In this document: piece by piece, positions 2,235-32,699 of the stretch
How positions within the stretch are numbered: the stretch's first letter is position 1
Layout of the letters: the number at the start of each line of letters is the position of its first letter
NCBI GenBank assembly: GCA_902610175.1
Contig: CACLUR010000002.1
Coordinates: 169,116 to 233,115, forward strand
From: an uncultured Alphaproteobacteria bacterium
GTDB taxonomy: Bacteria > Pseudomonadota > Alphaproteobacteria > HIMB59
Length of the DNA: 64,000 nucleotides
Direction of reading: 5' to 3'
Notes under the pieces: model-generated
Databases searched by the model: none
What the model saw: the letters and a program-made list of their open reading frames with translations, nothing else
What the model was told of the DNA's origin: nothing
Program-made: the position numbers and the translations under genes

Positions 2235-3221
2235 TTAAAATCTTTCAATTAATTTCTTTAAATGATTGTCACTTACACCACAGCATCCACCAATGATTTG
2301 TATTTGATCATCAATAAATTCTAAGCAAGTATTTGCAAATTCATCTTCATTATATGTAGCAATAGCTTCATGTGTGCTTGTATCAAATTTATGTATTTCT
2401 GGATAATACATCATAGGGCCACTCCAATGATCTTTTATAATTTTCAATCCACCATAGCTATCTTGAAACCACGTGTGCATAATACCATAAACATCTCCAC
2501 CAATATTTGTTAGTGTTTTTATAATATCTTCAAATAAAATTATATCATCTTCAGGTAAAAATTTCGGCTGTTCTTGATATATCTTTTCATCATAAATTAG
2601 TGATTTTTCTTTTTCAGCTCTAAAATTTCTTCCTACTATCGTATTATCATATTTACTTACACAACAACTTAATCCAACCCATACGGGTAAACCAGTTTGT
2701 AAAGCAGCATTCAATAATAATTGTGAATGGTCTATGTCTAATAACATTTCTAATATTAAAATATCTACACCAGAATTTTTTAATGTGTTAGCTGCCTCTA
2801 TATAATTCTCTTCTTCTTGTTTAAATGACGGAATAAACCTTGGATCAGGTACAAATTCATTTTCCTTTAAAGCAAAAAAATTGGAGAGACTTCCAGCTAT
2901 AGCAACTTGATTTTCCTTATTACAGTTTTTTAATGCTTTTCTTGCTAATTCGACAGATCCAGTTAAAAATTCTATAGTTTCATTTTCACGATTTAAACTT
3001 TGTAAAACGTGTCTACTGGTTGCAAAAGTGTTAGCGGTGATGATATCACATCCAGCATTGATGAAGTTTTCATGAACTTTTACAACAATATCAGGAGATG
3101 TAATTGTTGATAATGCTGCAAAAGCAGGGCTCATATCACCACCTAATTTAGCAATCTCAGAACCATTTCCACCATCGAGGAAAATTTTTGAATTGTTATT
3201 TAATTTTTCTTTATAAATCAT
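2235..3221 (-). CDS. homocysteine S-methyltransferase family protein (BHMT/MmuM type), paralogue 2
   Basis: This 328-residue zinc thiol methyltransferase is diverged from the copy at 183-1103. It keeps the FLDGGNGSEIAKLGG start, a Cys186-Cys187 pair (GLSCC) and the C-terminal GGCCG with Cys313-Cys314, so the zinc site appears complete. Its ATG overlaps the stop of the upstream DMT transporter (3218-4111) by 4 bp, a sign of translational coupling. Having two such enzymes within 3 kb is more than methionine salvage needs and suggests distinct methyl donors (inference). It could equally be an S-methylmethionine or selenocysteine methyltransferase. Confidence 0.85.
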   Translation of the reverse strand: MIYKEKLNNNSKIFLDGGNGSEIAKLGGDMSPAFAALSTITSPDIVVKVHENFINAGCDIITANTFATSRHVLQSLNRENETIEFLTGSVELARKALKNCNKENQVAIAGSLSNFFALKENEFVPDPRFIPSFKQEEENYIEAANTLKNSGVDILILEMLLDIDHSQLLLNAALQTGLPVWVGLSCCVSKYDNTIVGRNFRAEKEKSLIYDEKIYQEQPKFLPEDDIILFEDIIKTLTNIGGDVYGIMHTWFQDSYGGLKIIKDHWSGPMMYYPEIHKFDTSTHEAIATYNEDEFANTCLEFIDDQIQIIGGCCGVSDNHLKKLIERF

Positions 3222-4111
3222 GATTTTTTTGTGTTTGGTGCTAGTACTACTGCTAAAATTCCACCAAGCACAATCATTGAACTTCCTATTATTTCACGCC
3301 AGCCAAAAGGCTCATCTGTCAAAATACTAGAACTGGTCACACCAACAAGTATTTCTGATAAAAAAAGAATGGAACACAAACCGGCACCTAATTTGCTAGG
3401 AGACCAGAATATTACTACACCTGTGGGTATAAAATAAAAAACAGATATAAAGAAAAGAAATGAAGACATTTCAACGAAAGAGTCCATTGTAGGCATAGGT
3501 CCTAAATAATCTCTCAAAAAGATGCCAGCGACAATGTTAAATAAAGTTCCATAAAAAAAGAAAGAAAAAATTGTTGGGAATACACCATCTGTCTTTGCGA
3601 TTTCTAATTTTATCATCCCGCCAGCAAATAATGCCCCTCCAGCAAAAGCTAACCAATCACCAGCATTCTCTGGTAAAGGGATTATCGTTTGCTTACTAAA
3701 TACTACCCATAGCCCCCCTAAAGCTAAACCAAGTGTTATAGCTCTTTCTATCCCAGGTCTTTTTTTCAAAAATAAAATTTCAAAAATAGTAGTCCATATT
3801 GGTGTCATGTAAAAAAGTATTAATGCTCGAACTACATCAGTTAAAAGAAAACTCAACGCATAACAAATAAAGCCGCCCCCACAAAGTAAGCCTGTTATCG
3901 GTAGCTCTAAACCAAAAGTTCTTCCATTAATTTTACGCCACACTGCAATTGGAGATAAAATTAAAACTCCAATAATCATTTGTGCGATGGTTCCCCAACC
4001 ACCAGTAAGACCACCGTCTTCTAATATTCTTTGTGGTAACCAATATATACCCCATGATCCAGCTGATATAGCTAGGGCAGCTGCTATTTTATAATGATGA
4101 GGGTGCCTCAT
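3218..4111 (-). CDS. EamA/DMT-family inner-membrane transporter
   Basis: A 297-residue hydrophobic protein with about ten predicted transmembrane helices and the duplicated EamA layout of the drug/metabolite transporter superfamily. Glycine-rich helix contacts such as ALFAGGMIKLE and an SEILVGV segment near the C terminus are visible. Such proteins usually export amino acids, amines or metabolites by proton antiport. It sits between the amidase and a homocysteine methyltransferase in an apparent minus-strand operon and overlaps the latter by 4 bp. Substrate is unknown. Confidence 0.85.
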   Translation of the reverse strand: MRHPHHYKIAAALAISAGSWGIYWLPQRILEDGGLTGGWGTIAQMIIGVLILSPIAVWRKINGRTFGLELPITGLLCGGGFICYALSFLLTDVVRALILFYMTPIWTTIFEILFLKKRPGIERAITLGLALGGLWVVFSKQTIIPLPENAGDWLAFAGGALFAGGMIKLEIAKTDGVFPTIFSFFFYGTLFNIVAGIFLRDYLGPMPTMDSFVEMSSFLFFISVFYFIPTGVVIFWSPSKLGAGLCSILFLSEILVGVTSSSILTDEPFGWREIIGSSMIVLGGILAVVLAPNTKKS

Positions 4112-4116: not shown

Positions 4117-5532
4117 TTAATCTAACAGAGGTTTAAACTTACTAAAGTTAAATATTTCCTCATATTTTTTTGCAAAAGCAAATAATTGTAAATCACTTTT
4201 CCTTTTTCCAATTATCTGCATACCCATTGGCATACCAAGTTCATCAAATCCGACAGGGATAGTGAATGTCGGTAATTCAAGAAGACTAGACAATATAAAA
4301 ATTTCTAACCAACGGTGGTAAGTATCTAACTGAAAAGAATTTATTTTTTCAGGAAACTGTTGATTTTTATCAAACGGAAATAGTTGTGCAGAGGGTAAAG
4401 CTAGAAAATCAAAGTTTTTAAAAATATTTTCAATTTGTTCTTCACACTTTTTTTTTTGTTTATAAGCACTATCTAAGTCTTCATTATTTATATTTTTTCC
4501 TTGATTGTACTCCCATATAGCTTGGTAAGTCATTGTATTAATATCTTTTATGTTCATTGCTAAAGTATCTTCGTAAATACTTTTTGATCTAAACGTAATC
4601 CAACTATTCCATAGAGCTTCATTATCAAAATCTGGTTTTAATCTTTCAATTTTTACATACAAGTTTTCTAATTTTTTAAGTTGAGACTCACACATATCTA
4701 AAATTTTTGTTTCAATTTTATAATTGTTATTCATATTAGATAACCAACCTATTTTGATATTGGTTAAATCTTCATCTTTTATTTTTTGATTTTTAAAAAG
4801 TTCTTTTAAATCAAAAGAATAGTTATCCCTTGTGTCACTTCCAATCATTTCATCTAATAAAAATGCCATATCATTTGGTGATTTTGCTAAACAACCAGGT
4901 GTTGTGAGTATGGGAATTTTTGATAATTGGTTCCCTCTATCAACTGAAATTAAGCCAGGTGTAGGTCTGTATCCATAAATATTTGCATATGCTGCTGGTC
5001 CTCTGCATGATCCCATTTGATCAGTGCCGTCTGCAAATGGTATTAGTCCTGCTGCTACAGCAGTACTGGCTCCTCCACTTGATCCTGCTGCAGATTTTGT
5101 ATTATCAAAATAATTAGAAGTTGGGCCAAACAATCTGTTTATTGTATGTCCACCAACACCTAATTCTGCTGTGTTAGTCTTTCCAATGATAATAGCTCCG
5201 CTTTTAATAAGACGTTCAACAAACAATGAATTTTTTTTGGGAAAATAATCTTTTGTTCCAGGATAGCCATATGTTGTTTTAATGCCAACTACATCACTTA
5301 AATCTTTAATAGCTATGGGAATTCCATTTAAAGTCTTCTCAGATTGAGTTGAATTATCTTTATATATAGCTTCTTTTATAAGATCCCCTCTATCCTTGAG
5401 AAGCACTATTGCATTTAAATCTGGATTAAATTTTTCAATTCTATCCAAATAGTATTCCATTACCTCTTTAATAGATATTTGTCGCTGATTTATATTGTGT
5501 ATTATTTCTTCAACAGATTGATCCTCAAGCAT
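4117..5532 (-). CDS. amidase-signature family hydrolase
   Basis: A 471-residue amidase-signature enzyme that hydrolyses a carboxamide to acid plus ammonia or amine. The Ser-cisSer-Lys triad is readable: Lys76 (AIKDLSD), the first Ser of GSSGGAS (Ser151), and nucleophile Ser175 in DQMGSCRGPA. The usual DxGGSxRxPA motif has Met-Gly in place of Gly-Gly and Cys after the nucleophile, a mild deviation. It has the normal family length and no signal peptide, so it is cytoplasmic. It is not GatA, because the usual gatC/gatB neighbours are absent. It lies 5-6 bp from the genes on both sides in a minus-strand operon, suggesting use of an amide-containing nutrient. Confidence 0.88.
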   Translation of the reverse strand: MLEDQSVEEIIHNINQRQISIKEVMEYYLDRIEKFNPDLNAIVLLKDRGDLIKEAIYKDNSTQSEKTLNGIPIAIKDLSDVVGIKTTYGYPGTKDYFPKKNSLFVERLIKSGAIIIGKTNTAELGVGGHTINRLFGPTSNYFDNTKSAAGSSGGASTAVAAGLIPFADGTDQMGSCRGPAAYANIYGYRPTPGLISVDRGNQLSKIPILTTPGCLAKSPNDMAFLLDEMIGSDTRDNYSFDLKELFKNQKIKDEDLTNIKIGWLSNMNNNYKIETKILDMCESQLKKLENLYVKIERLKPDFDNEALWNSWITFRSKSIYEDTLAMNIKDINTMTYQAIWEYNQGKNINNEDLDSAYKQKKKCEEQIENIFKNFDFLALPSAQLFPFDKNQQFPEKINSFQLDTYHRWLEIFILSSLLELPTFTIPVGFDELGMPMGMQIIGKRKSDLQLFAFAKKYEEIFNFSKFKPLLD

Positions 5533-5538: not shown

Positions 5539-6729
5539 TTAGCGAGCTTGTTTTATACTTTGAGTAACAATGTCTTTCATTTGCAACAATGATGCTTCTT
5601 TTGGATTTGTTGCATAGGCTTGATCCTGCATAGCTTTTTTTGCAATCCTTTCAGCACAGTCTTCAGGAACATCAATTTCACTTAAACTTTTAGGGATATT
5701 TAATCTATCAAGTAACAATTCAATATTTTGAGTAAATTCATTTACTGTATGATTGTCAAATTGCATGGCTTCTGACATTCTTTGAACTTTTTCATCCATA
5801 CCTGGTAAATTGAAATGAAGAACAGGCGGTAATACAATAGCATTCGTTAAACCATGATGAGTATTAAATTCTGCTCCAACCATGTGGGATATTGAATGAA
5901 CATTACCTAATCCCTTTAAAAAGGATATTCCTCCCAAATATGATCCTATGATCATTGCACCTCTTGCCAACAAATTATTTGGTTCTTCTACAGCTAAAAC
6001 AAGAGATTTTGAAATTAAATTAAGACTTTCCAAAGCAGCTCCATCACAAAGTGGATGAAAACCTGGCACACAGTATCCCTCGATACTATGTACAAGAGCA
6101 TCAACACCTGTCCACGCTGTTAATTTTGGAGGTAATTCTAATGTTAACTCTGGATCTACTAGTGTGAATATAGGTCTTACATCTGGATGCCAGATGCAAA
6201 ATTTCATTCCTTTTTCTAAATGTGTAACCATTGCTGTTATTTCTGTTTCAGCTCCGGTTCCTGCAGTTGTTGGGACAGTTATTATTTTTGGAAATGCATT
6301 TTCTTTTGTTATTTTTGGTACTGGTTGTTCAAACTCAAAATCCCATAATGGGGTTTCACTATTAACAGTTAAACATATAGACTTACCACCATCCATAGCA
6401 CTCCCACCACCAATAGCTATGATTGAATCGTGACTTCCATTTTTAAACTGGTCACATCCTTTGGATATCTCATCATCTCGTGGGTTAGGCGATATATTAT
6501 AAAATAAATCTGATTTAATATTATTTTTTGATAATAATGCTATTAACTTCTTAATAAAAGGAAGATCCTTGCTGCCACTATCTGTTACAATAAGAGGATT
6601 TTTAATATCAAATTCCTCACAAAATTTTGCAATTTCATTAAATCTTCCTGGTCCGTAATATGTGGTTGTCGGAAAAGTCCAGTCTTGGTTAGACAGGATA
6701 TCTTTTTCGTTTAGTTTAAAGTTTTTCAT
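5539..6729 (-). CDS. iron-containing alcohol dehydrogenase
   Basis: A 396-residue group III (Fe-type) NAD(P)-dependent alcohol dehydrogenase. The nucleotide-binding GGGSAMD lies at residues 107-113 (IIAIGGGSAMDGGKS). Likely metal ligands are Asp210, His214 (ALVHSIEGYC), His282 (SISHMVG) and His292 (NTHHG). These enzymes oxidise short alcohols, diols or hydroxy acids. It heads the minus-strand operon running down to the enolase-superfamily gene and is divergent, 41 bp away, from the DMT transporter at 6771. Substrate is unknown; a hydroxyacid or amino-alcohol would fit the neighbourhood. Confidence 0.9.
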   Translation of the reverse strand: MKNFKLNEKDILSNQDWTFPTTTYYGPGRFNEIAKFCEEFDIKNPLIVTDSGSKDLPFIKKLIALLSKNNIKSDLFYNISPNPRDDEISKGCDQFKNGSHDSIIAIGGGSAMDGGKSICLTVNSETPLWDFEFEQPVPKITKENAFPKIITVPTTAGTGAETEITAMVTHLEKGMKFCIWHPDVRPIFTLVDPELTLELPPKLTAWTGVDALVHSIEGYCVPGFHPLCDGAALESLNLISKSLVLAVEEPNNLLARGAMIIGSYLGGISFLKGLGNVHSISHMVGAEFNTHHGLTNAIVLPPVLHFNLPGMDEKVQRMSEAMQFDNHTVNEFTQNIELLLDRLNIPKSLSEIDVPEDCAERIAKKAMQDQAYATNPKEASLLQMKDIVTQSIKQAR

Positions 6730-6770: not shown

Positions 6771-7682
6771 ATGATTAATTTTATTTATAATCAAAAAAAT
6801 ACATTTCTTGCAATCTCTGCAATGGTTATTGGAGTTATATTCATAGATATACATGGATTGATTGTAAAATATTTAGGAGGTGAGTATTCTACAATTCAAC
6901 TAGCTCTTTTTAGAAATACTTTTGCGATAATCCCCCTAATACTTTTACTAATTTATAATAAAGAAAGCTCAGACCTTTTTAAAAATTTAAATAAAAAATT
7001 TATTTTATTTTGTTTTATCAGAGGTTCTTGTTTTTTGGCTATTAATATCTTGTATTACATTGCAATAAATAATATGGAATTTGCTACAGCATCTACACTA
7101 ACTTTTTCCTCTACATTTTTTATAGTAATTTTATCAATCTTCTTTTTAGGAGACAAAGTGGGTATATATAGATGGTCAGCTGTTATAATTGGCTTTGTTG
7201 GAGTTGTAATGATTATGAAACCTAATAGTAGTATTTTTTCTTATTATTCTATTTTACCAATACTAGTTGCTTTCTTATGGGCTGTCCAAGTGATAGTACT
7301 AAAATTTATACCAGATAATTTTTCTACAGGAAAAATTCAATTCTATTCTCTCTTTTCATCTTTTCTTGGTTCATTAATATGTATTTTTTTTACAACTGGT
7401 CATACATATATTGAGAGCAATACTGACTTTTTAATTTTATCATTAATTGGTATTTTTGGAGGAACAGCTGCAATTCTATTTATTTACTCTTATAGGTTAA
7501 TAGCAGCAAGTAAAATCGCAGTTTTTGAATATTTAGCAATACCCTCATCTTTTATTCTAGCATGGATATTTTTTGGTGAAGCACCTTTTGATCAACTTTT
7601 CCCTGGAGTTTTATTAATAGTTTTCGCTGGAATGATTATTATTTGGAGAGATAAAAATAAGAAAATTAATAAACCAAACTAA
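6771..7682 (+). CDS. EamA/DMT-family inner-membrane transporter
   Basis: A 303-residue polytopic protein with about ten hydrophobic helices in two EamA repeats. The first repeat has HGLIVKYLGGEYSTIQLALFR and the second has FEYLAIPSSFILAW, the family's usual late-helix signature. Such proteins often export amino acids or small metabolites; some act as importers. It lies between the divergent alcohol dehydrogenase and the convergent proV-like gene and has no co-directional partner, so its link to either cluster is by position only. Confidence 0.85.
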   Translation: MINFIYNQKNTFLAISAMVIGVIFIDIHGLIVKYLGGEYSTIQLALFRNTFAIIPLILLLIYNKESSDLFKNLNKKFILFCFIRGSCFLAINILYYIAINNMEFATASTLTFSSTFFIVILSIFFLGDKVGIYRWSAVIIGFVGVVMIMKPNSSIFSYYSILPILVAFLWAVQVIVLKFIPDNFSTGKIQFYSLFSSFLGSLICIFFTTGHTYIESNTDFLILSLIGIFGGTAAILFIYSYRLIAASKIAVFEYLAIPSSFILAWIFFGEAPFDQLFPGVLLIVFAGMIIIWRDKNKKINKPN

Positions 7683-7691: not shown

Positions 7692-8726
7692 TCATTTAGA
7701 TTTCATAGACTTCATGACTATGGTTCGATCAATTTCTCCAACTAACTCACCAGATTGTGCATTTATTATAGGGTAAGCTGTATCATCCTCACATATCTGG
7801 TCAATTAATGTTTCAATTTTAGCATTTTCATCAATGCATTTAGTTTTATCTGAAAATAATTTCTTTGACTCATCAGAACATTCCTTACGCATAACTTTTC
7901 CAGCACTTAATACTTTATATTTTGGAACATCTTCACAAAAATCTTTAACGTATTTGTCAACTGGATTTGCAACAATTTCTTCAGGCGTTCCAACTTGAGA
8001 AATCTCTCCATCTTTCATGATAGCAATATGATCTCCCATTTTTATTGCCTCTAAAAAATCATGTGTAATAAAAACCATAGTTCGTTGTAATTTTTTTTGA
8101 ATGTCTAAGAGTTCATCTTGCATTTCTCTTCTAATCAATGGGTCTAAAGCAGAAAATGGCTCATCAAATATTAAGATTTCTGGCTCAACTGCCATCGCAC
8201 GTGCTAAACCAACTCTTTGTTGCATTCCACCTGATAGCTCTCTTGGATAATTATTATGCCAACCTTTTAAACCAACAAGATTTAAAGACTCTGTAGCCTT
8301 GTCTAATCTTTCTTGTTTTTTTTCTCCCCTAATTTCTAAACCATAAGAAATATTTTCAAGAACTGTTCGATGTGGAAAAAGTCCAAAGTGTTGAAATACC
8401 ATACTCATTTTATTTCTTCTAAGATCAAGAAGGCTATTTCTGCTTATTTTTGTAACGTCAATATCATCAATAATTACCGATCCAGATGTAGGTTCAATTA
8501 ATCTAGTTAAACATCTTACTAAAGTTGATTTTCCACTACCTGATAATCCCATTACAACAAATGTTTCACCTTTTTGAATGGAAAAGCTGACATTTTTTAC
8601 AGCTACTACATGTCCGGTTTTTTCTTGGACTTCGTCTCTACTTAAATTTGGATCTAAATTGTCTAAAATTCTTTTTTCATCATTGCCAAAAATTTTCCAT
8701 ATATTTGAGCAAACAATTTTATCCAT
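7692..8726 (-). CDS. proV: glycine betaine/proline-type ABC transporter ATP-binding protein (ProV-like)
   Basis: A 344-residue ATPase of the quaternary-amine uptake family. Walker A is GLSGSGKST at residues 60-68, followed by the signature LSGGMQQRVGLARAM and Walker B ILIFDEPFSALD. The N-terminal extension before the ATPase core and the VAVKNVSFSI segment are typical of ProV. The C-terminal part resembles a reduced CBS region, which in relatives senses ionic strength. It is divergent from the fused permease gene, with 87 bp between their starts. The binding protein gene (16274) is separated from both. Likely ligand is glycine betaine, carnitine, DMSP or a similar compound. Confidence 0.9.
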   Translation of the reverse strand: MDKIVCSNIWKIFGNDEKRILDNLDPNLSRDEVQEKTGHVVAVKNVSFSIQKGETFVVMGLSGSGKSTLVRCLTRLIEPTSGSVIIDDIDVTKISRNSLLDLRRNKMSMVFQHFGLFPHRTVLENISYGLEIRGEKKQERLDKATESLNLVGLKGWHNNYPRELSGGMQQRVGLARAMAVEPEILIFDEPFSALDPLIRREMQDELLDIQKKLQRTMVFITHDFLEAIKMGDHIAIMKDGEISQVGTPEEIVANPVDKYVKDFCEDVPKYKVLSAGKVMRKECSDESKKLFSDKTKCIDENAKIETLIDQICEDDTAYPIINAQSGELVGEIDRTIVMKSMKSK

Positions 8727-8813
8727 ATTATTAAGGTTTAAGGCTATTATAATTGTGAATTAATACTATTAAAATAAAATTATTTTTATAAATTCTTATA
8801 TAGTTGAGTAAAT

Positions 8814-10937
8814 ATGTCTTTAGATCAAAATATAGCTACTAAAAATAAATTAAATAAAAATATAATTTTTTACTTAAGTATTTTTATCATTGGGGCAGTA
8901 GCTTATTATCTGTCGATTATTAATGAGGACCCTACTGTATTTCCTAAATCTATTACTGATGAATTTAAATTTACCGCATGGATAAATGCTGGAGAGGATT
9001 ATTTAAAAGATAACTATAGATGGATAACGAGATTATTTGCCTCTTTTTTACAAGCTGGTTACATGGCATTGGAAAATTTCTTTGTTGAGTCTCCATGGAT
9101 TTTAATAATGTCTTTAATGGCTCTTCCAGCTTTAGCATATGGTGGTATTAAACTAGCTCTATTTTGTATGTTTACAGTTTATTTCTGGGGTGCTGTGGAT
9201 ATGTGGGAAGTCTCAATGCAAACATTAGCATTAATGGGCTTATCAGTAATTTTATCTGTAATTTTTGGAGTTATCCTAGGGATACTCAGTTCTCAAAGTG
9301 ATAGATTTGAAAATTTTCTAAAACCTATTTTAGACACCATGCAAGTCATGCCTGCCTTTGTATATTTATTCCCTGCTATGTTTTTTTTCGGAATTGGTGG
9401 TGCTCCAGCAATACTTGCTACACTAATTTATGCTATGCCTCCAATTATTAGGTTAACAAATTTAGGAATAAGACAAGTATCTAAAGAAACAATAGAGTCA
9501 GCTGAGTCATTTGGATCTAATAAATTTCAGCTTTTATTTAAAATTAAAATTCCAATGGCCTTACCAAGTATCATGATGGGTGTTAATCAAACAATTATGA
9601 TGGCCTTAGCTTTAGTTGTTCTTGCAACTTTTATCGGTGCTGAAGGTTTAGGAGGTCAAGTATGGCAAGCAATTAGAAAATTAGATGTTGGTTGGGCGAT
9701 GGAAGGAGGCTTGTGTATTTTATTTATGGCAATTATGTTTGATAGAATAAGTAGTGCTATTAGTAAAGAAAAAGAAACCTTACCTGATGATGTAAAAAAA
9801 TTTTACTTATTGCCGCAAAATCTACACAGAAACCCTGTAGCAAACTTAATTGAATTACCTTTGAGAATATCTGTAAAGCTCATAAATATATTTTTTACAA
9901 CTATTGTTAATGTTTTTGCTAGTTTAATTGCTAGCTTTATTTCTTTTTTTAATAAGTCTCAAAAAGGTTCAGTTAAAAATTTTATAAATCAACGATATTT
10001 TTTATTTTCATCATTTTTAATTTTTATCTTTATTTATATTTTTGATGCATACATTTATAGTATAGGTACTTTTCCAGAAACTTGGGCAATTGATATTCAA
10101 AAACCAATAGAAGATACTGTAAAGGCAATGACTCTTGATCCTGGTTTTATATCATTTGCAAAAGGTATGAAGTATTTTGTTTACTTATATTTGCTAAATC
10201 CATTAAATTTATTTCTAACTCAAATACCTTGGTGGTATACAATGATTGTTTTTATACTTATAGGATATGTGACAGTTGGAATAAAGTTTGCCACCATTAC
10301 AGCAATATTATTAGCCTTTATTGGGGCTACAGGTATGTGGGTGCATTCAATGATTACTCTATCTTCAGTATTAGTTTCAGTTTTAATTTGTTTTGTAATA
10401 GGAGTACCACTTGGAGTAATAGCATCCTACAATAAATGGTACAGAGATATCCAAAATGTTGTTTTAGATGCAATGCAAACTTTGCCATATTTTTGCTATT
10501 TAATTCCTGTTTTAATGTTTTTTGGAGGAAATATAGTATCTGCAGTTATTGCAACAGTTATATATTCTGTGCCACCAATAATAAGATTAACAGCTCTTGG
10601 TTTGTCACAAGTATCAGGGAGCTATTCTGAGGTATCTAAATCTTTTGGAGGAACAGGAATTCAAACTTTAAATAAAGTAAAATTTCCACTAGCTGTTCCC
10701 AGTCTCGTCATGGGTTTTAATCAAACTGTAATAATGGCTTTTGCAATGCAAATTGTTACACCATTGATTGGAGGAAAAGGTCTAGGACTCCAAGTATTTA
10801 ATGCACTTCAAAGATCAGATACGGGAAGAGGTCTATCAGCCGGTTTAGCTATCGTTCTTCTAGCTATTATCATCGATAGGATAACCCACGCCTGGACTAA
10901 GAAACAAAGACAAGCCCTTGGATTAGATAAATCCTAA
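8814..10937 (+). CDS. fused double permease of a glycine betaine-type ABC transporter (ProW-ProW)
   Basis: A 707-residue membrane protein holding two complete ProW-like permease domains in tandem. Each domain has a W(V/Q)HSM-like or WEVSMQTLAL helix, a loop with LDTMQVMP or LDAMQTLP, and an EAA loop that contacts the ATPase (ESAESFGSNKF near residue 225; SEVSKSFGGTG near residue 605). A long hydrophilic linker with extra helices joins the halves. Family permeases are normally about 280-350 residues and homodimerise, so this fusion supplies both halves in one chain. Its TAA shares one base with the ATG of the molybdoenzyme gene (TAATG at 10935-10939), implying coupled translation. Confidence 0.9.
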   Translation: MSLDQNIATKNKLNKNIIFYLSIFIIGAVAYYLSIINEDPTVFPKSITDEFKFTAWINAGEDYLKDNYRWITRLFASFLQAGYMALENFFVESPWILIMSLMALPALAYGGIKLALFCMFTVYFWGAVDMWEVSMQTLALMGLSVILSVIFGVILGILSSQSDRFENFLKPILDTMQVMPAFVYLFPAMFFFGIGGAPAILATLIYAMPPIIRLTNLGIRQVSKETIESAESFGSNKFQLLFKIKIPMALPSIMMGVNQTIMMALALVVLATFIGAEGLGGQVWQAIRKLDVGWAMEGGLCILFMAIMFDRISSAISKEKETLPDDVKKFYLLPQNLHRNPVANLIELPLRISVKLINIFFTTIVNVFASLIASFISFFNKSQKGSVKNFINQRYFLFSSFLIFIFIYIFDAYIYSIGTFPETWAIDIQKPIEDTVKAMTLDPGFISFAKGMKYFVYLYLLNPLNLFLTQIPWWYTMIVFILIGYVTVGIKFATITAILLAFIGATGMWVHSMITLSSVLVSVLICFVIGVPLGVIASYNKWYRDIQNVVLDAMQTLPYFCYLIPVLMFFGGNIVSAVIATVIYSVPPIIRLTALGLSQVSGSYSEVSKSFGGTGIQTLNKVKFPLAVPSLVMGFNQTVIMAFAMQIVTPLIGGKGLGLQVFNALQRSDTGRGLSAGLAIVLLAIIIDRITHAWTKKQRQALGLDKS

Positions 10938-13282
10938 TGGGTTTTAAGAAAGATCTTCCCTTAACTAGTTCGCATTGGGGAACATATAGAGCAAAAGTAA
11001 ATAATGGGAAAGTCACAGAATTAATTGGATGGGAAAATGATAAAGATCCATCACCAATAGGCCCAGGTATTGTAGACATTCACGATAATAAAACGCGAAT
11101 TGATAAGCCTATGATAAGAAAAAGTTGGATTGATAATGGACCAGGAACAAACAATAACTTAAGAGGGATAGATCCTTTTGTGGCTGTATCTTGGGATGAA
11201 GCTGAAAATATAGTAGCCAAAGAATTAAACAGAGTAAGAGAAAACTTTGGTAATTCCTCAATATTTGGTGGATCTTATGGCTGGGCTAGTGCTGGGAGAT
11301 TTCATCACGCTCAAAGCCAACTACATCGTTTTTTAAATTGCATTGGTGGCTACACAAGATCAAAGTTTACCTATAGTTTTGCAGCAGCAGAAGCAATGGT
11401 TCCCCATATACTTGGAAGTTATAGAGCTTATCTTGATACCTGCACTAGTTGGGACTCAATCGAAGAAAACACAGAACTATTTGTATGTTTTGGAGGTGTT
11501 CCTTTAAAAAATGGTCAAATAGCTCAAGGTGGAACCGGAAGTCATAATCAAAAAGAAAAACTAATTAGTTCTGCAAAAGCTGGCATAAAATTTGTAAATT
11601 TGAGTCCACTGAAAAGTGACTTGTTAGACGAAGTTAAAGGAAAATGGTTACCCTTAAGACCTAATACTGATGTAGCAATTATGCTCGGTCTAGCACACAC
11701 TCTATACAAAGAAAATTTATATAATGAAATATTTATTAAAAAATACACAGAAGGTTTTGATATTTTCTTACCATATCTTTTAGGAGATTTAGATGGGGTA
11801 GTAAAAGATGCTAATTGGGCTTCAGAAATAAGTGAAATCTCTTCAGAAGAAATTATCTCTCTAGCAAGAGACATGTCCTCAAAGCGAACTATGATATCTG
11901 TTAGTTGGTCTTTAACTCGCCAAGATCATGGTGAACAGCCATTTTGGGCAGCAATTATGTTGGCATCAATGTTGGGTCAAATAGGTTTACCAGGTGGTGG
12001 TTTTGGATTTGGTTATAGTGCAACTAATCACATTGGTGGGCAGTTTTCTATTATTCCTGGTGCTGCTTTTCCACAATCTGACAATAAAATTGATAATTTT
12101 ATTCCAGTTGCAAGGATAAGTGATTTACTTTTAAATCCGGGTGAAACTTTTCATTTTGATGGCAAGGAGTATGAATATCCTGATATTAAATTAATTTATT
12201 GGGCAGGTGGAAACCCATTTCATCATCATCAGGATATTAATAAACTTTTACTAGCTTGGCAAAAACCTGAAACCATTATTTCTAATGAATGGTGCTGGAA
12301 TTCTTTAGCTAAATATTCAGATATTATCTTACCTTGTACCACTCCACTTGAAAGACAAGATATAATGCTTACCCCAAGAGATCCTTACGTAATTTCAATG
12401 TCAAAATTAGTTGAACCTTTTGAAGAGGCTAAAAGTGATTTTGATATTTTTAAAGGAATTGCAAAAAAAATGGATATTGAAAATCTTTTTACTGAAGGAA
12501 GAGATGAAGAAGATTGGCAAAAATGGATTTATCAAGAAACATCAGTCAAGTCAAAGTCATTAAAAAATATTGATTTTCCTAGCTATCAGGATTTTAGAAA
12601 AATAGGGTGGTTTAAAGTTCCACCACCAAAAGAAAATACAATAATGTTAAAAGATTTTAGAGAAGATCCCACTAAATTCCCACTCTCAACTCCAAGTGGA
12701 AAAATAGAAATATATTCTAAAACAGTAGATAGTTTTAATTATGATGATTGTCCTGGTCATCCAACCTGGTTAGAACCCTGTGAATGGCTTGGAAGTAAAA
12801 ATAAAAACTATCCTTTACATTTAATATCTAATCAACCAAAAAATAAATTACATAGTCAAATGGATCACGGAAGTTATAGTAAATCTTTTAAAATTAAAGA
12901 TCGTGAACCAATTGAAATGAATAGTGTAGATGCTAGTAGTCGAGGTATAAATGAGGGAGATATAGTAAAACTTTTCAATGACAGAGGTGCCTGTTTAGCT
13001 GGTGTAAACATTAATGATAATATACGCCCTGGAGTTGTTCAAATTAGTACAGGTGCATGGTATGATCCTGAGGATACTAAAAATTTAAAAACTATCTGCA
13101 AACATGGTAATCCTAATGTCCTTACAAAAGACAAAGGAACTTCGAAATTAGGTCAAGGTCCTATAGCACATTCATGTCTCATCGAAGTAGAATTAGTTAA
13201 AGATAAAATTTCACCTGTGACCGCATTTGACCCTCCTGTTATTATTCGTGACTATAAATCTAATAGAGTCATTGATAAATAA
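10937..13282 (+). CDS. molybdopterin-dependent oxidoreductase, DMSO/TMAO/biotin-sulfoxide reductase family
   Basis: This 781-residue protein aligns by eye along its length with the single-subunit DMSOR family. It has the N-terminal SSHWGTYRAKV, the Mo-site segment SYGWASAG (residues 113-120, whose Ser is the probable Mo ligand), FAAAEAMVPHILG, the guanine-dinucleotide-cofactor strands KFVNLSP and WAGGNPFHHH, and a C-terminal cofactor domain with ISNQPKNKLHSQ. There is no N-terminal Fe-S CxxC motif and no Tat signal, so it should act in the cytoplasm like BisC, unlike TorA/DorA. The family reduces S- or N-oxides; some members run the other way. It is coupled by TAATG junctions to the permease upstream and the GcvT-like gene downstream. 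Confidence 0.88.
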   Translation: MGFKKDLPLTSSHWGTYRAKVNNGKVTELIGWENDKDPSPIGPGIVDIHDNKTRIDKPMIRKSWIDNGPGTNNNLRGIDPFVAVSWDEAENIVAKELNRVRENFGNSSIFGGSYGWASAGRFHHAQSQLHRFLNCIGGYTRSKFTYSFAAAEAMVPHILGSYRAYLDTCTSWDSIEENTELFVCFGGVPLKNGQIAQGGTGSHNQKEKLISSAKAGIKFVNLSPLKSDLLDEVKGKWLPLRPNTDVAIMLGLAHTLYKENLYNEIFIKKYTEGFDIFLPYLLGDLDGVVKDANWASEISEISSEEIISLARDMSSKRTMISVSWSLTRQDHGEQPFWAAIMLASMLGQIGLPGGGFGFGYSATNHIGGQFSIIPGAAFPQSDNKIDNFIPVARISDLLLNPGETFHFDGKEYEYPDIKLIYWAGGNPFHHHQDINKLLLAWQKPETIISNEWCWNSLAKYSDIILPCTTPLERQDIMLTPRDPYVISMSKLVEPFEEAKSDFDIFKGIAKKMDIENLFTEGRDEEDWQKWIYQETSVKSKSLKNIDFPSYQDFRKIGWFKVPPPKENTIMLKDFREDPTKFPLSTPSGKIEIYSKTVDSFNYDDCPGHPTWLEPCEWLGSKNKNYPLHLISNQPKNKLHSQMDHGSYSKSFKIKDREPIEMNSVDASSRGINEGDIVKLFNDRGACLAGVNINDNIRPGVVQISTGAWYDPEDTKNLKTICKHGNPNVLTKDKGTSKLGQGPIAHSCLIEVELVKDKISPVTAFDPPVIIRDYKSNRVIDK

Positions 13283-14478
13283 TGGGAAATTTACAAGAAG
13301 AAGCTGATCTAAATAAAACAATTCAAATTAGTGCACGTAGATTTGAAGAGTCTCCATTCATTCAACGTACTAATACTTCGAATATGGTTAGAGGCGTCTA
13401 TGCAGGAAGATACTTTCCTATGAAAATTGATGAAGATCCTATAGAAAAATATTGGCTTTTAAGACAAAAAGCTCTTTTATTTGATGTTCCAGAAAAACCG
13501 ATAGAAATATCAGGAAAAGACTCAGTTTCTTTTTTGAATAAAGTGCTGACAAGAGAAATTTCAAAAACTAAAATTGGCAGAGGTTATTATGCACTTGCCT
13601 GTACACCAAAAGGTGGAATTTTCATGGATGGAGTTTTATTTAGGTTTGATGAAGAAAAGTTTTGGTACGTTCAAGCGGATGGCCCATTTGAAGATTGGCT
13701 TATTGCTCATAGTTCAAATTATGATATTCAAATAAAAGACCCTAAATCCAGAGTTCTTCAAATTCAAGGTCCGGCATCAATCGATATTATGAAGTTAGCT
13801 TCTAATGGAAAGATTGATGAAAATATGCCTTATTTTACATCCAATTTTTTTGATCTAGGAGGGCAAACTTTATATGTTTCAAGAACAGGTTTTACAAATG
13901 AATTAGGATTTGAAATTTTTTGTGATGGTTTTAACACAGACCATTTGGCTCTATGGGACCATCTTATTGAATGTGGTAAACCATATGGTATGCAATTTTC
14001 AGCCTCTAGAGCTATGACTATTAGAAGAATTGAGGGTGGTATTTTTGGAAATTTAACTGATATAGATACAACAATTACTCCTTTCGAAGCAGGGCTGGGG
14101 TATTTTGTGAATATGGATAAAGATTTTATCGGTAAAGATGCATTAATTAAAAAAGATAAAAGGACTTGTTTATTTGGAATAACATGTAAAACAGCAGTTC
14201 CTAAAGCAGGAAGTAAAATAAAAATTAATGATAAACAAGTCGGCTACATAACAGCAGGTGTACCGTCTCCAACTCTCCAACAAGGAATTGGTTATGTAAG
14301 ATTTTATGAACCAAATGATTATATAAATAAAGAGATAGAAATGATTCTCCCAGATAATTCTTCACACACCGGAGTCGTTGTAGATTTACCTTTTTATGAT
14401 AAAGAAAAAAAAATTGTAAAGGGTATAGATAGATCTATTCCCATTAAACCTGATAGTAATTCTTTTGATGCAAAATAA
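13282..14478 (+). CDS. GcvT/DmdA-like tetrahydrofolate-dependent methyltransferase
   Basis: A 398-residue aminomethyltransferase-fold protein (GcvT domain plus C-terminal barrel). Visible segments are ARRFEESPF, VEISGKD-like IEISGKDSVSFLN, GRGYYALACTPKGGIFMDGVLF, LQIQGPASIDIM, SRTGFTNELGFEIF and TPFEAGLGYFVNMDKDFIGKDAL. The opening layout (RRxxxSPF followed by a YxxxYFPM segment) resembles DMSP demethylase DmdA more than glycine-cleavage GcvT, and no gcvH or gcvP is nearby. Members move a methyl or methylene group from an amine or sulfonium compound to tetrahydrofolate. The start ATG shares a base with the upstream stop. Substrate is unresolved: DMSP, dimethylglycine, sarcosine or another methylated osmolyte. 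Confidence 0.8.
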   Translation: MGNLQEEADLNKTIQISARRFEESPFIQRTNTSNMVRGVYAGRYFPMKIDEDPIEKYWLLRQKALLFDVPEKPIEISGKDSVSFLNKVLTREISKTKIGRGYYALACTPKGGIFMDGVLFRFDEEKFWYVQADGPFEDWLIAHSSNYDIQIKDPKSRVLQIQGPASIDIMKLASNGKIDENMPYFTSNFFDLGGQTLYVSRTGFTNELGFEIFCDGFNTDHLALWDHLIECGKPYGMQFSASRAMTIRRIEGGIFGNLTDIDTTITPFEAGLGYFVNMDKDFIGKDALIKKDKRTCLFGITCKTAVPKAGSKIKINDKQVGYITAGVPSPTLQQGIGYVRFYEPNDYINKEIEMILPDNSSHTGVVVDLPFYDKEKKIVKGIDRSIPIKPDSNSFDAK

Positions 14479-15256
14479 TTTACTTAAAAATAAAAAAATT
14501 ATTTTATCTGCTGGTGCTTCTGGGATAGGTCTAGCTATTGTAAAATTATTACTATTACAAGGTGCTATTGTTTATACTTGTGATATTGATAAAAAAAATA
14601 TTAATAAACTGAAAAAAAATTCATACTTTAATAAAAAACTTTTTATATTTGAATGCGATGCTTCAAAAGAAGATGAGGTGAAAAAATTTTATAAAGAAAT
14701 ATCAAATAAAACAAAAAAAATAGATGGACTTATAAATAATATTGGAATAGCTGGACCCACATCTCCTTTAGAGAAAATTAAATCTGATGATTGGGAAAAG
14801 ACCTTACATGTAAATATTAATAGTCATTTTTATTTTACTAAATATGCAATACCCATGATTAAGAAATCTAAAAATGGCTCAATCATCAATATTTCCTCTA
14901 CAGCTGGTATTGATGGTTTTCCTAATAGATCACCTTATGCGGCAAGCAAATGGGCCTTAGTTGGTATTACTAAAACTTTAGCAATGGAATTAGGTAAATT
15001 TAATATACGAGTAAATGCAATATGCCCGGGTTCTGTTAAAGGTGCGAGAATGATGAGAGTCATAAAAGCGAAAGCAAAAATGTTAAACCAATCTGTAAGA
15101 TCAATTGAAAAAGATTTTGTTTCTATGAGTTCTTTAAAACAATGGGTTTATGAAGATGATATAGCAAAAATGTGTTCCTTTTTAATTTCTCAAGACTCCC
15201 TTAGAGTCTCAGGTCAAGTAATTTCTATTGATGGAAATACTGAGAGAATGGATTAA
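14468..15256 (+). CDS. short-chain dehydrogenase/reductase (classical SDR)
   Basis: A classical SDR of about 262 residues. It has the cofactor loop SAGASGIGLAI (the usual TGxxxGIG with Ala for Gly near its start), the NNIGIAG strand and a catalytic Ser-Tyr-Lys set in NISSTAG and SPYAASK (about Ser144, Tyr157, Lys161), then the ICPGSV loop. I chose the ATG at 14468 over a TTG one codon upstream. The gene overlaps the GcvT-like gene by 11 bp, so it is the fourth coupled gene of the permease-molybdoenzyme-methyltransferase operon. It probably oxidises a hydroxyl group in the same pathway (inference). It ends in a 4-bp tail-to-tail overlap with the BKACE gene. Confidence 0.88.
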   Translation: MQNNLLKNKKIILSAGASGIGLAIVKLLLLQGAIVYTCDIDKKNINKLKKNSYFNKKLFIFECDASKEDEVKKFYKEISNKTKKIDGLINNIGIAGPTSPLEKIKSDDWEKTLHVNINSHFYFTKYAIPMIKKSKNGSIINISSTAGIDGFPNRSPYAASKWALVGITKTLAMELGKFNIRVNAICPGSVKGARMMRVIKAKAKMLNQSVRSIEKDFVSMSSLKQWVYEDDIAKMCSFLISQDSLRVSGQVISIDGNTERMD

Positions 15257-16140
15257 GTTTTTTTAAGCTTTAAATAATCTCTAGTCTCTTGGGGACTCAT
15301 AATAGAGGAGCCCAACTCATGAACTATTTTTATTGCCTTTTCAACTAATTGTGGATTAGTTGCAAGTTTTCCCTTTGATAAATATAAATTATCTTCAAGC
15401 CCAACTCTGGGATTACCTCCAAGTAAAACTGTTTGTGCAACAAAGGGCATTTCATTTCTTGAAATTGCAAAGCCTGACCAAATAGCATCTTTAGGCATGA
15501 CATCTAACATTGCAATCATAGCTGTAGTTTTTGCTGGAGCTCCCCAGGGAATTCCTAAACACATTTGATATAAGGGTGGGTCGCTAAGTAGTCCTTCTTC
15601 ATAAAGCTGAGCACCAAACCACATATTACCTAAATCAAATGCTTCAACTTCAGGTTTAACCCCAATTTCTTTTAATCGTTTTGCTGCTTTTCTTAAATCA
15701 TTTGGAGTATTGACTGCCAACACAGAACTATCACCAAAATTTAAAGTTCCAGCATCAAGTGTACAAATTTCCGGAAGTAATTCCTCTACATGAGATATTC
15801 TTTCCATAATATTAGCCATATCTGTATATGGACCAAAATCCATTGGGTTATCTCCTTCACCTATATCTAAATCACCTCCCATACCGGTTGTTAAATTAAT
15901 AATTACATCAGTGTCACTAGATCTAATTATTTCAACTACTTCCTTATAAAATTCAAATTTTCGACTAGGCGTTCCATCTTCCTCTCTGACATGAATATGA
16001 ACTATAGATGCACCTGCTTGAGCAGACTCTATTGCGGATTTAGCTATTTGTTTTGGAGTCTTTGGAAGATCAGGATGTTTTGATGCAGTGTCACCGGATC
16101 CATTAACAGCACATGTAAGAAATACTTTAGTTTTCATCAT
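15253..16140 (-). CDS. beta-keto acid cleavage enzyme (BKACE, DUF849 family)
   Basis: A 295-residue zinc-dependent TIM-barrel enzyme. The family condenses a beta-keto acid with acetyl-CoA and cleaves it to acetoacetate plus a new CoA ester; one known branch acts on 3-dehydrocarnitine to give betainyl-CoA. The zinc motif is His48-x-His50 in IVHIHVREEDGTPS, preceded by ITCAxxG-like FLTCAVNGSG. Later family segments include NLTTGMGGD, LDAGTLNFGD and GNPRVGLEDNLYL. It is transcribed against the SDR and away from proX. Beside a betaine-type transporter and an SDR, dehydrocarnitine-like cleavage is an attractive but unproven role. Confidence 0.88.
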   Translation of the reverse strand: MMKTKVFLTCAVNGSGDTASKHPDLPKTPKQIAKSAIESAQAGASIVHIHVREEDGTPSRKFEFYKEVVEIIRSSDTDVIINLTTGMGGDLDIGEGDNPMDFGPYTDMANIMERISHVEELLPEICTLDAGTLNFGDSSVLAVNTPNDLRKAAKRLKEIGVKPEVEAFDLGNMWFGAQLYEEGLLSDPPLYQMCLGIPWGAPAKTTAMIAMLDVMPKDAIWSGFAISRNEMPFVAQTVLLGGNPRVGLEDNLYLSKGKLATNPQLVEKAIKIVHELGSSIMSPQETRDYLKLKKT

Positions 16141-16273
16141 TTTTGATAGTATTACACTTAATTAATTAATAAAAAACATATTTTATAGAGTTTTGTTACC
16201 TATTAATGAATAAATAACATATGTACTTTGACTATTTTTTGTTAATATAAACACTTTATGGGAGGGATAATCT

Positions 16274-17275
16274 ATGAGAATATCTAAAACAATTATAACT
16301 TTTATTCTATCCTCTATTCTTTTTACCGCAACATTCAGTAAAGCTAATGCTGAAAAATTATTAGCAGCGATCGCTGACTGGACAGGTGGAGAGATTTCAT
16401 GTCAAGTAGCTGTAAGCATACTTGAAGATGAGTTAGGATACGAAATTGATAGAATCGTATTTGCTTCAGGAACTGGCTTGTGGGAAGCTATTGCTGCAGG
16501 CGATATTGATTTTGCATGTGAGTCATGGCCTAGTTATGCTGAAGCTGATGAGGTTATGTTAAATGGCGACTTAATTCATGGTGGGGAAGTTAAAATGACT
16601 TACTCAGGTGATGGAAGTGTAAAATTACTTGGAACTGTTGGTATTACTGGTATGTCAGATTACTATGTTCCAAAATATTGGGCTGATGCAAACCCAGATT
16701 TTTCTGGTTATGCTGATTTAAATAAATTTAAAGAAGATTTTGCTACTATGGAGTCTGGTGGAAAAGGTAGATTAATTGGTTGTCCAGTTGCTGGTTGGAA
16801 CTGTCATGATCAAAAAAGATTAGATTTACTTGGTTTAGACTTTGTTGCTGATGAATTGGGAACCGAAACTGCTGCTCTTGCTGAAGCGCAAGGTATGTAC
16901 GACAGAGGCGAGCCTTTCTTAATGTACCTTTGGGAGCCACATTGGTTCTTTGGTGTTAACGAATTAGTAGGTGTAAAATTAGCTCCAAACAAAACTTGTG
17001 ATAGCTTTACTGAGGCAAACAACTGGGAAACTTGTGGAGCTGACGCTTGGCCAGCAACAGGTTGGGCTGTTGACTATCCAATGAACTACGGTAATCCTGA
17101 TACATTTGCTAAACCAGAAAACCAAAAAGCACTTGAATTCTTTGGTAAAATGGCATTATCAAATGCAGATCAAGCAGCGATGCTCGTTAAAGTTCGTGAA
17201 GGTGGAGAGCTTAATGATGTTGTTGCTGAATGGAAAGCTAACAATAAATCTACTTGGGAGAAATGGTTACCATAA
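16274..17275 (+). CDS. proX: glycine betaine-type ABC transporter substrate-binding protein (ProX-like)
   Basis: A 333-residue periplasmic binding protein of the OpuAC/ProX family. A signal peptide covers residues 1-26 (cleavage after KANA). The mature protein has IADWTGGEISC, FASGTGLWEAIAAGDIDFACESWPS and a Trp-rich half (YLWEPHWFF, NNWETCGADAWPATGW) able to supply the aromatic cage for a trimethylammonium or dimethylsulfonium group. A strong Shine-Dalgarno sequence, GGAGG at 16261-16265, lies 8 bp before the ATG. It is G+C-richer at silent sites than its neighbours, as expected for a highly expressed gene. Its partners are the ATPase at 7692 and the fused permease at 8814. It is followed by a perfect hairpin at 17312-17332. 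Confidence 0.92.
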   Translation: MRISKTIITFILSSILFTATFSKANAEKLLAAIADWTGGEISCQVAVSILEDELGYEIDRIVFASGTGLWEAIAAGDIDFACESWPSYAEADEVMLNGDLIHGGEVKMTYSGDGSVKLLGTVGITGMSDYYVPKYWADANPDFSGYADLNKFKEDFATMESGGKGRLIGCPVAGWNCHDQKRLDLLGLDFVADELGTETAALAEAQGMYDRGEPFLMYLWEPHWFFGVNELVGVKLAPNKTCDSFTEANNWETCGADAWPATGWAVDYPMNYGNPDTFAKPENQKALEFFGKMALSNADQAAMLVKVREGGELNDVVAEWKANNKSTWEKWLP

Positions 17276-17357: not shown

Positions 17358-18854
17358 TTGACAGACTCACTTTATTCAAATCTTATTGAAACTAATTTAG
17401 ACAATAATAAAGCTTTTTTAATATTAGATGATGGATCCGAAATTACTTATAAAAATTTCATAATTCTTGCATCAAAAATTTCTCACAAATTATCAAAATT
17501 AGGGTTAAAAGCAGGGAGTCATATTCTTGTAAAGTCTGCCAAATGTAAAGAGACTTTAGCTCTTTATTTATCATCTATTCTTACTGGATCAGTTTTTTTT
17601 CCACTTAATACAAGTTATACAGTTAATGAAACAATTTATTTTATAAAGGACTCAAAACCATCTTTTCTTATCTGTGATAAATCAGAAATTGATAGCTTAA
17701 AACCAATTTGCGATGAAATTGGCTGTAGAATTTTATCTTTAAATGCAAACGGAATTGGAGAGATTACTGATGGTTTAGAAAACCTTGATAGTTTTTTTGA
17801 ACCATCAAAAAGAACATATAATGATTTAGCAGCACTTTTATATACCTCTGGGACTACAGGAAAACCTAAAGGTGCTATGTTAACTGAACAAAATTTAGTT
17901 TCAAATGCTCAAGAACTAATAAATTTATGGAATATAAATCGCAATGATACTTTAATTCATTCACTTCCAATTTATCATACTCATGGATTGTTTGTTGCTA
18001 TTAATACCTCCATGATAAGAGGGGCTACTATAAGATTTATAAAAAATTTTAATACAGACTCAATTATTGAAGCATTTAATTATTCAACTCTGATGATGGG
18101 TGTACCAACTTTTTATACGAGATTGTTGAATGACAAAAGACTAGATAAGAAATTAACACAAAATATGAGATTATTTATATCTGGAAGTGCTCCATTGTTA
18201 AATCAAACATTTATAAATTTTTATAGAGTAACCGGCCATCAAATATTAGAGAGATATGGTATGACTGAAACTAATATGAATGCTTCTAATCCTTGTGATG
18301 GGGAAAGAAAGGCAGGATCAGTTGGTAAACCTTTAAAAGATATTAAAATAAGAATAAATAATATTCAAAGTGACAATACAAAATCAGAAAATGATATTGG
18401 AACAATAGAAATAAGTGGTCCTAATGTATTTAAAGGTTATCTAAATAATCCAAAAAAGACAAAAGAGGCATTTACTAAAGATGGTTTTTTTATAACCGGT
18501 GATATTGGATATTTTGATAATGATGGATATCTATTCATATCCGGAAGAAATAAAGATTTAATCATAAGTGGTGGATATAATGTTTATCCTAAAGAAATTG
18601 AAGATATTATTAATCAACACGAATTAGTTTTAGAGTCTGCTGTTTTTGGTATCCCTAATGACGATTTAGGTGAAGTACCTATTGCAGCAATAGTTATGAA
18701 GAATAAATTTACAGATTTAAATGATCTTAAAGATTTTTTAAAAAAACACTTAGTGAAATATAAAATTCCATATAAATATATATTGTTGGATGAACTTCCA
18801 AAAAACGTCATGGGAAAAGTTCAAAAAAATACTTTAAAAGAAAAATATTCCTAA
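17358..18854 (+). CDS. matB: AMP-forming acyl-CoA ligase, malonyl-CoA synthetase-like (MatB)
   Basis: A 498-residue ANL-superfamily ligase that would activate a carboxylate with ATP and CoA. The phosphate loop LYTSGTTGKPKG is at 161-172. Further motifs are SLPIYHTHGLFV, MMGVPTFYTRLL, FISGSAPLL, ERYGMTETNM, FFITGDIGY and the hinge SGRNKDLIISGGYNVYPKEIE. The HTHGLFVA, MGVPTFYTRLL and FISGSAPLL wording closely matches MatB, which makes malonyl-CoA from malonate; a methylmalonate or other short diacid role is possible. The start is a TTG at 17358. It lies 82 bp after proX and has no malonyl-CoA decarboxylase gene beside it. Confidence 0.82.
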   Translation: MTDSLYSNLIETNLDNNKAFLILDDGSEITYKNFIILASKISHKLSKLGLKAGSHILVKSAKCKETLALYLSSILTGSVFFPLNTSYTVNETIYFIKDSKPSFLICDKSEIDSLKPICDEIGCRILSLNANGIGEITDGLENLDSFFEPSKRTYNDLAALLYTSGTTGKPKGAMLTEQNLVSNAQELINLWNINRNDTLIHSLPIYHTHGLFVAINTSMIRGATIRFIKNFNTDSIIEAFNYSTLMMGVPTFYTRLLNDKRLDKKLTQNMRLFISGSAPLLNQTFINFYRVTGHQILERYGMTETNMNASNPCDGERKAGSVGKPLKDIKIRINNIQSDNTKSENDIGTIEISGPNVFKGYLNNPKKTKEAFTKDGFFITGDIGYFDNDGYLFISGRNKDLIISGGYNVYPKEIEDIINQHELVLESAVFGIPNDDLGEVPIAAIVMKNKFTDLNDLKDFLKKHLVKYKIPYKYILLDELPKNVMGKVQKNTLKEKYS

Positions 18855-18902
18855 ATTCCAAAAATATTCTTTTTTTTAATAATTTTAATGTATAAGTTTT
18901 AT

Positions 18903-28954: not shown

Positions 28955-28995
28955 ATATCTCTGTTTTTGAATTCATATTCAATTATATTTATTTA

Positions 28996-32694: not shown

Positions 32695-32699
32695 TTTAA

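Follow-up and report, generated by a model that had tools for sequence, protein, structure and literature searches.

Which solute enters an ocean alphaproteobacterium through a betaine-type ATP-binding cassette (ABC) importer whose genes run into those of a molybdoenzyme and a folate-binding methyltransferase, and which neighbouring genes belong to that system? The locus lies in a 64,000-nt stretch of contig CACLUR010000002.1 (the window, to whose positions gene coordinates refer), from a 1.39-Mb genome in 16 contigs; we take its genus to be HIMB59, of an order distinct from Pelagibacterales. The original prediction had joined seven genes here (proV, a fused permease, the molybdoenzyme, a 'DmdA-like' methyltransferase, a short-chain dehydrogenase/reductase (SDR), BKACE and proX) into one pathway for a methylated, perhaps oxidised osmolyte. 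A comparison of 24 window proteins with 73 loci supports the central part of that claim: a betaine-family importer is coupled, physically and evolutionarily, to a molybdoenzyme of the S/N-oxide-reductase type and a folate-binding methyltransferase. BKACE and the 'DmdA-like' label drop out of it. We give a probability of a little over one in three to the reading that this block, the island, would serve uptake, reduction and tetrahydrofolate (THF)-linked demethylation of an S-oxidised methylated zwitterion, with dimethylsulfoxonium propionate (DMSOP) or a close relative as the leading candidate, the substrate being read from neighbouring genes and residues only.

The core of proV, permease, molybdoenzyme, GcvT-like gene and proX is present in all eight Pelagibacterales genomes examined in detail (G440-G445, G458 and G460, tabulated from wider stretches), at 61-83% protein identity; further carriers known outside this table are G669, G681 and the genome behind L069. 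Gene counts throughout rest mostly on incomplete single-cell genomes. As far as the contigs reach, the Pelagibacterales order is EamA, amidase, iron-containing alcohol dehydrogenase, EamA, proV, permease, molybdoenzyme, GcvT-like gene, proX. In the window the permease and molybdoenzyme genes overlap by 1 bp (TAATG), as do the molybdoenzyme and GcvT-like genes, and the GcvT-like and SDR genes overlap by 11 bp; proV diverges from this run on the + strand. Across locus records, which are not independent since many represent the same genome twice, permease-molybdoenzyme junctions span -4 to +1 bp (76 records) and molybdoenzyme-GcvT junctions -1 to +32 bp (77 records); the GcvT-SDR figure of -8 is counted from SDR codon 2. 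Because these distances are so narrow, the coupling of the genes is not a chance arrangement.

Twelve genes recur in 8/8 genomes: the core five, a homocysteine S-methyltransferase (HMT1), two EamA transporters, the amidase, the iron alcohol dehydrogenase, an aldehyde dehydrogenase (ALDH) and a glyoxalase-like gene, with the ALDH of G444 placed on the proX side. Other neighbours in Pelagibacterales are a CoA-transferase and a CitE-like lyase. Coordinates, strands, order and overlaps of the seven genes first described were all borne out by open reading frame (ORF) calls, and their families, in broad terms, by profile matches. Their boundaries as a unit were drawn wrongly, leaving out the seven other 8/8 genes. 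The expected four-gene co-conservation was found for permease, molybdoenzyme and GcvT-like gene (8/8); the SDR gene is near the core in only 3/8, and BKACE in 1/8, and we rejected both as core members. We likewise rejected matB, found in 0/8 neighbourhoods. That no described operon of this combination was known to the original prediction agrees with the literature matches listed, mostly a part of those among openly licensed PubMed Central (PMC) papers; these listed matches contain none.

Families below were assigned by profile matches judged against curated bit cut-offs (TIGR, NCBIfam NF and PF models). The core is listed first, and fractions give presence in the eight Pelagibacterales neighbourhoods.

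7692..8726, - strand: proV-type ATPase of a betaine/choline ABC importer (TIGR01186, 367 bits, over the cut-off of 326.6; 8/8)
8814..10937, + strand: permease with two fused transport domains (choline-type model TIGR03416 in two stretches, 426 bits, over the cut-off of 363; 8/8)
10937..13282, + strand: DMSO-reductase-type molybdoenzyme, predicted cytoplasmic, with Tyr114, Trp116 and Ser147 in DorA numbering and no signal peptide (8/8)
13282..14478, + strand: GcvT-like folate methyltransferase of its own clade (8/8)
16274..17275, + strand: ProX/OpuAC-type binding protein with OpuAC domain PF04069, a four-Trp cage and Tyr218 (8/8)
L098:7470-8900, just outside the window, upstream of HMT1: ALDH (8/8)
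L098:8901-9281, just outside the window, between ALDH and HMT1: 126-aa glyoxalase-like gene (8/8)
183..1103, + strand: homocysteine S-methyltransferase HMT1 (PF02574; 8/8)
1107..2231, - strand: mandelate-racemase/enolase family enzyme (0/8)
2235..3221, - strand: HMT2, a second homocysteine-S-methyltransferase-like protein (4/8, at at least 73% identity)
3218..4111, - strand: EamA/DMT-type transporter (8/8)
4117..5532, - strand: amidase-signature enzyme (PF01425; 8/8)
5539..6729, - strand: iron-containing alcohol dehydrogenase (8/8)
6771..7682, + strand: second EamA transporter (8/8)
14468..15256, + strand: SDR oxidoreductase (PF13561/PF00106), starting at the ATG at 14468 or at a TTG one codon earlier; probably not core (3/8)
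15253..16140, - strand: BKACE (PF05853), probably of a separate carnitine-type module (1/8)
17358..18854, + strand: malonyl-CoA synthase (matB), probably outside the unit (0/8)

The TIGR01186 score of proV together with PF04069 in ProX places the importer in the betaine/choline family.

What would the molybdoenzyme reduce? It is co-linear with Rhodobacter sphaeroides dimethyl sulfoxide (DMSO) reductase, DorA, over the full length (E 1.5e-209), and the alignment to the mature protein is free of gaps from residue 9 to about 165. A signal peptide would not fit, as the open frame has 10 residues before position 9 in the window and 10-28 in 42 island orthologs. Tyr114, Trp116 (within SYGW) and Ser147, the molybdenum ligand, are kept in 42/42 of these orthologs. 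The match to the BisC family model TIGR00509 (946 bits) stays below the cut-off of 1017.6. According to the available part of PMC5122715, the aligned S-oxide reductases all have Tyr114 and Trp116, and Escherichia coli TorA lacks Tyr114; a passage there on the molybdenum ligand speaks of an aspartate. As judged from the alignment, the residue pattern is thus of the S-oxide-reductase type, and a trimethylamine N-oxide (TMAO) reductase is disfavoured by the presence of Tyr114. The enzyme shares full-length homology and the three residues with DorA, BisC and MtsZ; it differs from them in sharing its operon with importer and methyltransferase genes and in its score below the TIGR00509 cut-off, and from DorA also in its missing signal peptide.

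The methyltransferase carries GCV_T domains (PF01571/PF08669), and its best NCBIfam matches, to the C-terminal part of TMAO demethylase (191 bits), to GcvT (164) and to DmdA (156), are all far below the cut-offs. Identity as DmdA was rejected, since the 156 bits compare with a cut-off of 410 for NF009133, the protein falls outside the DmdA clade and a true DmdA is encoded elsewhere in the genome, so the earlier label was too specific. Tdm, the TMAO demethylase, was rejected as well (only the C-terminal part matched, 191 bits against 1100 for NF053776, and a true Tdm lies elsewhere). A tree of 41 rows, in which the program flagged long branches elsewhere, places the protein in a clade outside DmdA and Tdm with support 100/100; the clade also holds a standalone paralog from the TMAO-type locus of the same genome, its counterpart in G029 and one more alphaproteobacterial sequence.

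A single 352-aa gene separates the genome's own DmdA (482.7 bits, over 410) from an ABC importer, and the ProX of this importer has 7yle as a match at 4e-74. We take 7yle to be the dimethylsulfoniopropionate (DMSP)-binding protein DmpX because the available part of PMC10030565 contains this code once and the eight pocket residues given in that paper all coincide with the expected letters. At the TMAO-type locus an importer accompanies Tdm (1160 bits, over 1100) and Tmm (734, over 675); the ProX of this importer has 4xz6, presumably TmoX, as a match at 5e-65. The standalone GcvT-like gene of that locus (L088:8460-9629) lies between Tmm and Tdm, and encodes the nearest paralog in the genome of the window protein (47% identity). 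It is present there although Tdm has a GcvT domain of its own. With DmdA plus a DmpX-type protein and Tdm plus a TmoX-type protein both elsewhere, the window locus is, by its gene content, a third importer-plus-methyltransferase locus, parallel to these two.

Its likeness to each known system is partial. DmpXWV with DmdA likewise combines an ABC importer of the betaine family with a nearby THF methyltransferase of the GcvT fold and shares the ProX cage and Tyr; the window locus differs by its non-DmdA GcvT-like protein, the extra molybdoenzyme and two changed polar contacts in ProX. TmoXWV with Tdm shares the importer family with fused permease, a GcvT paralog nearest to the window's and a ProX that is the nearest overall (4xz6); the window locus has the molybdoenzyme instead of Tdm and, at the key ProX position, Tyr instead of Phe. 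In SAR11 the available part of PMC3160333 describes SAR11_1303, near a betaine-type transporter, as an aminomethyltransferase with no assigned substrate. Both loci have a GcvT-like gene close to an ABC transporter of the betaine type; SAR11_1303, compared by description only, sits beside a sarcosine-oxidase-like gene instead of a molybdoenzyme.

In the binding protein, W36, W85, W175, W220 and Y218 are kept in 10/10 island rows and correspond to DmpX W35, W84, W152, W202 and Y200. With Ala or Phe in place of Y200, DmpX no longer bound DMSP, according to the available part of PMC10030565. Three TmoX-type rows have Phe at this position. Neither known pattern is complete: of the RnDmpX pocket (W35, T64, W84, E113, W152, A153, Y200, W202), the alignment gives G for T64, S for E113 and N for A153, the genome's own DmpX-type protein likewise having N at 153; and the TmoX pattern, Phe and Glu at the positions of Tyr200 and Glu113, is replaced by Tyr218 and Ser128. 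A GWNC loop occurs both in the island ProX and in the DmpX-type protein of this genome; E. coli ProX has a similar one, GWGC. ProX had no match to the choline-binding model TIGR03414 at E <=0.001. These residues suggest that the ligand is an onium zwitterion other than DMSP, and that it probably bears a carboxylate.

How widely is the island held? The molybdoenzyme (E = 0) occurs in 23/36 same-genus relatives and the source genome; this 24/37 is a minimum, G007 and G013 being scored negative yet having contigs that break inside the window stretch. It was found in 0/23 genomes of the other family in the same order and in 7/247 Pelagibacterales genomes drawn (many incomplete), including the centre, G440; that these seven matches within G440's order are all 72-75% identical is consistent with a separate order. 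The iron alcohol dehydrogenase (81-100% identity, with a partial match in G036) accompanies the molybdoenzyme in 20/24 carriers of the genus, and in the other four (G017, G019, G020 and G022) the contig ends before its place. At 80% identity or more it is present in 0/13 non-carriers, G007 and G013 included, three of which have a homolog of 52-55%. G029, a single contig that is 99% complete, has no molybdoenzyme ortholog; between its YtoQ-family and ugpB-type genes (L098:6921-7415 and window 21942-23249 in the source genome) it holds mostly other genes, sharing with the window stretch an ALDH (70%) and genes resembling those at 18888 (56%) and 21378 (67%). The island site is variable within the genus.

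For the island proteins, identities between the two lineages approach those between the window and one genus member, G030. GcvT-like proteins are 86-99% identical to the window's in close loci, 76% in the genus member G030 and 73-75% in Pelagibacterales; for the molybdoenzyme the figures are 77% for G030 and 72-75% for Pelagibacterales. By comparison, a 938-aa protein whose gene lies some 6 kb upstream of the window is 85-94% identical in three genus members, 55-56% in 7/8 Pelagibacterales and without a match in G440. The molybdoenzyme tree makes the copies of the two lineages sister groups (SH-aLRT 97 and 93, by a quick method). Since the island proteins are so much more alike between the lineages than this upstream protein, the island likely moved horizontally between them.

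On the reading we prefer, an S-oxidised zwitterion, ProX, permease and ProV would bring in a methylated onium zwitterion that probably bears a carboxylate, the molybdoenzyme would remove the S-bound oxygen in the cytoplasm and the GcvT-like protein would move a methyl group to THF. We infer the step order and the electron donor of the route; demethylation might come first, leaving a sulfoxide for the molybdoenzyme, which best suits a classical sulfoxide reductase, or DMSOP might first be reduced to DMSP. The reduced sulfur would feed the DMSP/methylmercaptopropionate/methionine pool, and a feed into methionine fits because a homocysteine S-methyltransferase sits in the island. The amidase, the two dehydrogenases, the glyoxalase-like protein and the EamA transporters might act on the carbon skeleton or be there for a second substrate. 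In the parts available, PMC10686828 reports that 'Candidatus' P. ubique uses DMSOP and states as open whether DmdA demethylates it, and PMC5069961 describes P. ubique as dependent on reduced sulfur, without metE or metH and using BhmT and MmuM. Also in favour of the reading are the contexts of distant molybdoenzyme homologs. Neighbours at four of 12 such loci were put through the family search, with matches all below curated cut-offs: a sulfonate-type ABC importer adjoins the homolog in L163 and a cystine-type ATPase that in L166, and a sulfatase-family gene lies two genes away in L156, while the neighbour in L157 is a peptide/nickel-type permease. The most specific version, in which importer, molybdenum S-oxide reductase and THF demethylase return DMSOP sulfur to the DMSP/methionine pool with no release of DMSO, and the set has spread between HIMB59 and SAR11, we regard as unlikely.

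Several findings weigh against this reading. Seven further 8/8 genes are explained by it only partly or not at all, and the permease exceeds the cut-off of a choline model. The ProX profile scores 113 bits (1.9e-31) against the TmoX chain 4xz6 and 57 bits (1.8e-14) against the DmpX chain 7yle, and Gly66 aligns to DmpX Thr64 and Ser128 to Glu113, in an alignment that could be off by one, with Thr67 and Asp129 adjoining. SYGW occurs in all 71 compared sequences whatever their context; these rows are best matches, and TorA-like rows (about 38%) are not among them, so the motif comparison contains no N-oxide-reductase contrast. We placed 12 distant molybdoenzyme homologs (44-54% identity) in context, and among called ORFs 0/12 had a GcvT neighbour, as 0/12 loci of GcvT relatives had a molybdoenzyme; the pairing therefore has no independent origin as support. 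In the available part of PMC10686828, DMSOP is scarce in open seawater (an average of 0.14 nM is quoted) and Ddd lyases can already cleave it.

Could the same architecture handle nitrogen? A betaine-, choline- or carnitine-like solute or an N-oxide would fit the permease score and the ProX profile nearest to TmoX, and so would two matches below cut-off: betaine-aldehyde dehydrogenase ranks second for the ALDH (416 of 668.6 bits), and the iron alcohol dehydrogenase resembles the choline dehydrogenase GbsB (230 of 550 bits). The two dehydrogenases would oxidise a choline-like alcohol to the acid, methyl groups would be removed by the homocysteine methyltransferase and GcvT-like protein, and the molybdoenzyme would act on an N-oxide; the paralog of the same clade beside Tdm and the carnitine-type genes near the island in G442 and G030 point the same way. 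We hold this only a little less likely than the S-oxide reading; against it stand Tyr114, which the N-oxide reductase TorA lacks in the alignment of PMC5122715 cited above, a ProX Tyr where three TmoX-type rows carry Phe, and the missing choline-binding match. That the molybdoenzyme is instead a general repair or salvage enzyme for methionine or biotin sulfoxide, with the GcvT-like protein acting on an unrelated osmolyte and the operon shared for regulation, is decidedly unlikely: its BisC-family match (below cut-off), cytoplasmic location and S-oxide residues would suit such a role, but the tight junctions with permease and GcvT-like genes in both lineages do not, and the absence of an ortholog from single-contig G029 and from 240/247 Pelagibacterales drawn (many incomplete) is unlike a housekeeping repair enzyme. 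A reductive sink, with TMAO or DMSO as electron acceptor and the other genes as passengers, recalls the family of the respiratory enzymes DorA and TorA; the molybdoenzyme lacks a signal peptide, though, and no cytochrome or TorD-like gene is among the annotated neighbours at 183-20483, the stretch to which the search was confined, so we hold this to be extremely improbable.

The pathway as first proposed in full would have the SDR oxidise a 3-hydroxy onium acid (carnitine- or gonyol-like) brought in by the same importer, and BKACE cleave the resulting beta-keto acid. In the window genus the SDR gene overlaps the GcvT-like gene and BKACE abuts, and a gene of the L-carnitine-dehydrogenase type adjoins BKACE in G030, where it lies between SDR and BKACE, and in G442 (both matches below curated cut-offs). 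In Pelagibacterales, by contrast with the core, the only BKACE near the island is that of G442, beside the carnitine-dehydrogenase-like gene, though the contig of G445 ends soon after the SDR, before the place of BKACE. The pair that would mark carnitine degradation, L-carnitine dehydrogenase beside BKACE, is absent from the window; the genome's nearest homolog of that dehydrogenase (52%) lies on the same contig, at a distance of about 40 kb. We therefore judge the full pathway very unlikely.

Some further observations concern these neighbours. Near the island of G442, BKACE, L-carnitine-dehydrogenase-like, luciferase-like monooxygenase and alpha/beta hydrolase genes form one run (L103:12614-16269). 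In the island carrier G444 a DddP-like gene of the DMSP-lyase family (L107:2342-3577; 337 of 600 bits) adjoins an SDR gene 68% identical to the window's. Downstream of matB, a histone-deacetylase-family protein (PF00850; 19575-20483) is 88-89% identical in L056 and L057, while matB and the intervening gene (18888-19559) are only 70-72% identical there. The G+C content of 28001-36000 is about 25%, against 27-32% in other 4-kb blocks, and genes in or at the edge of this part include RecG-type and Mfd/TRCF-type helicases. No RNA switch was detected in window positions 1-22000, the part searched, at E <=2.

Two small-genome ocean lineages keep, and seem to exchange, a dozen-gene block for a solute yet to be assigned. 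If that solute is an S-oxidised osmolyte, the block would give DMSOP-type sulfur a fate other than lysis to DMSO. If it is a different one, an unassigned marine one-carbon route would still gain a defined set of genes, among them that of a binding protein open to direct screening.

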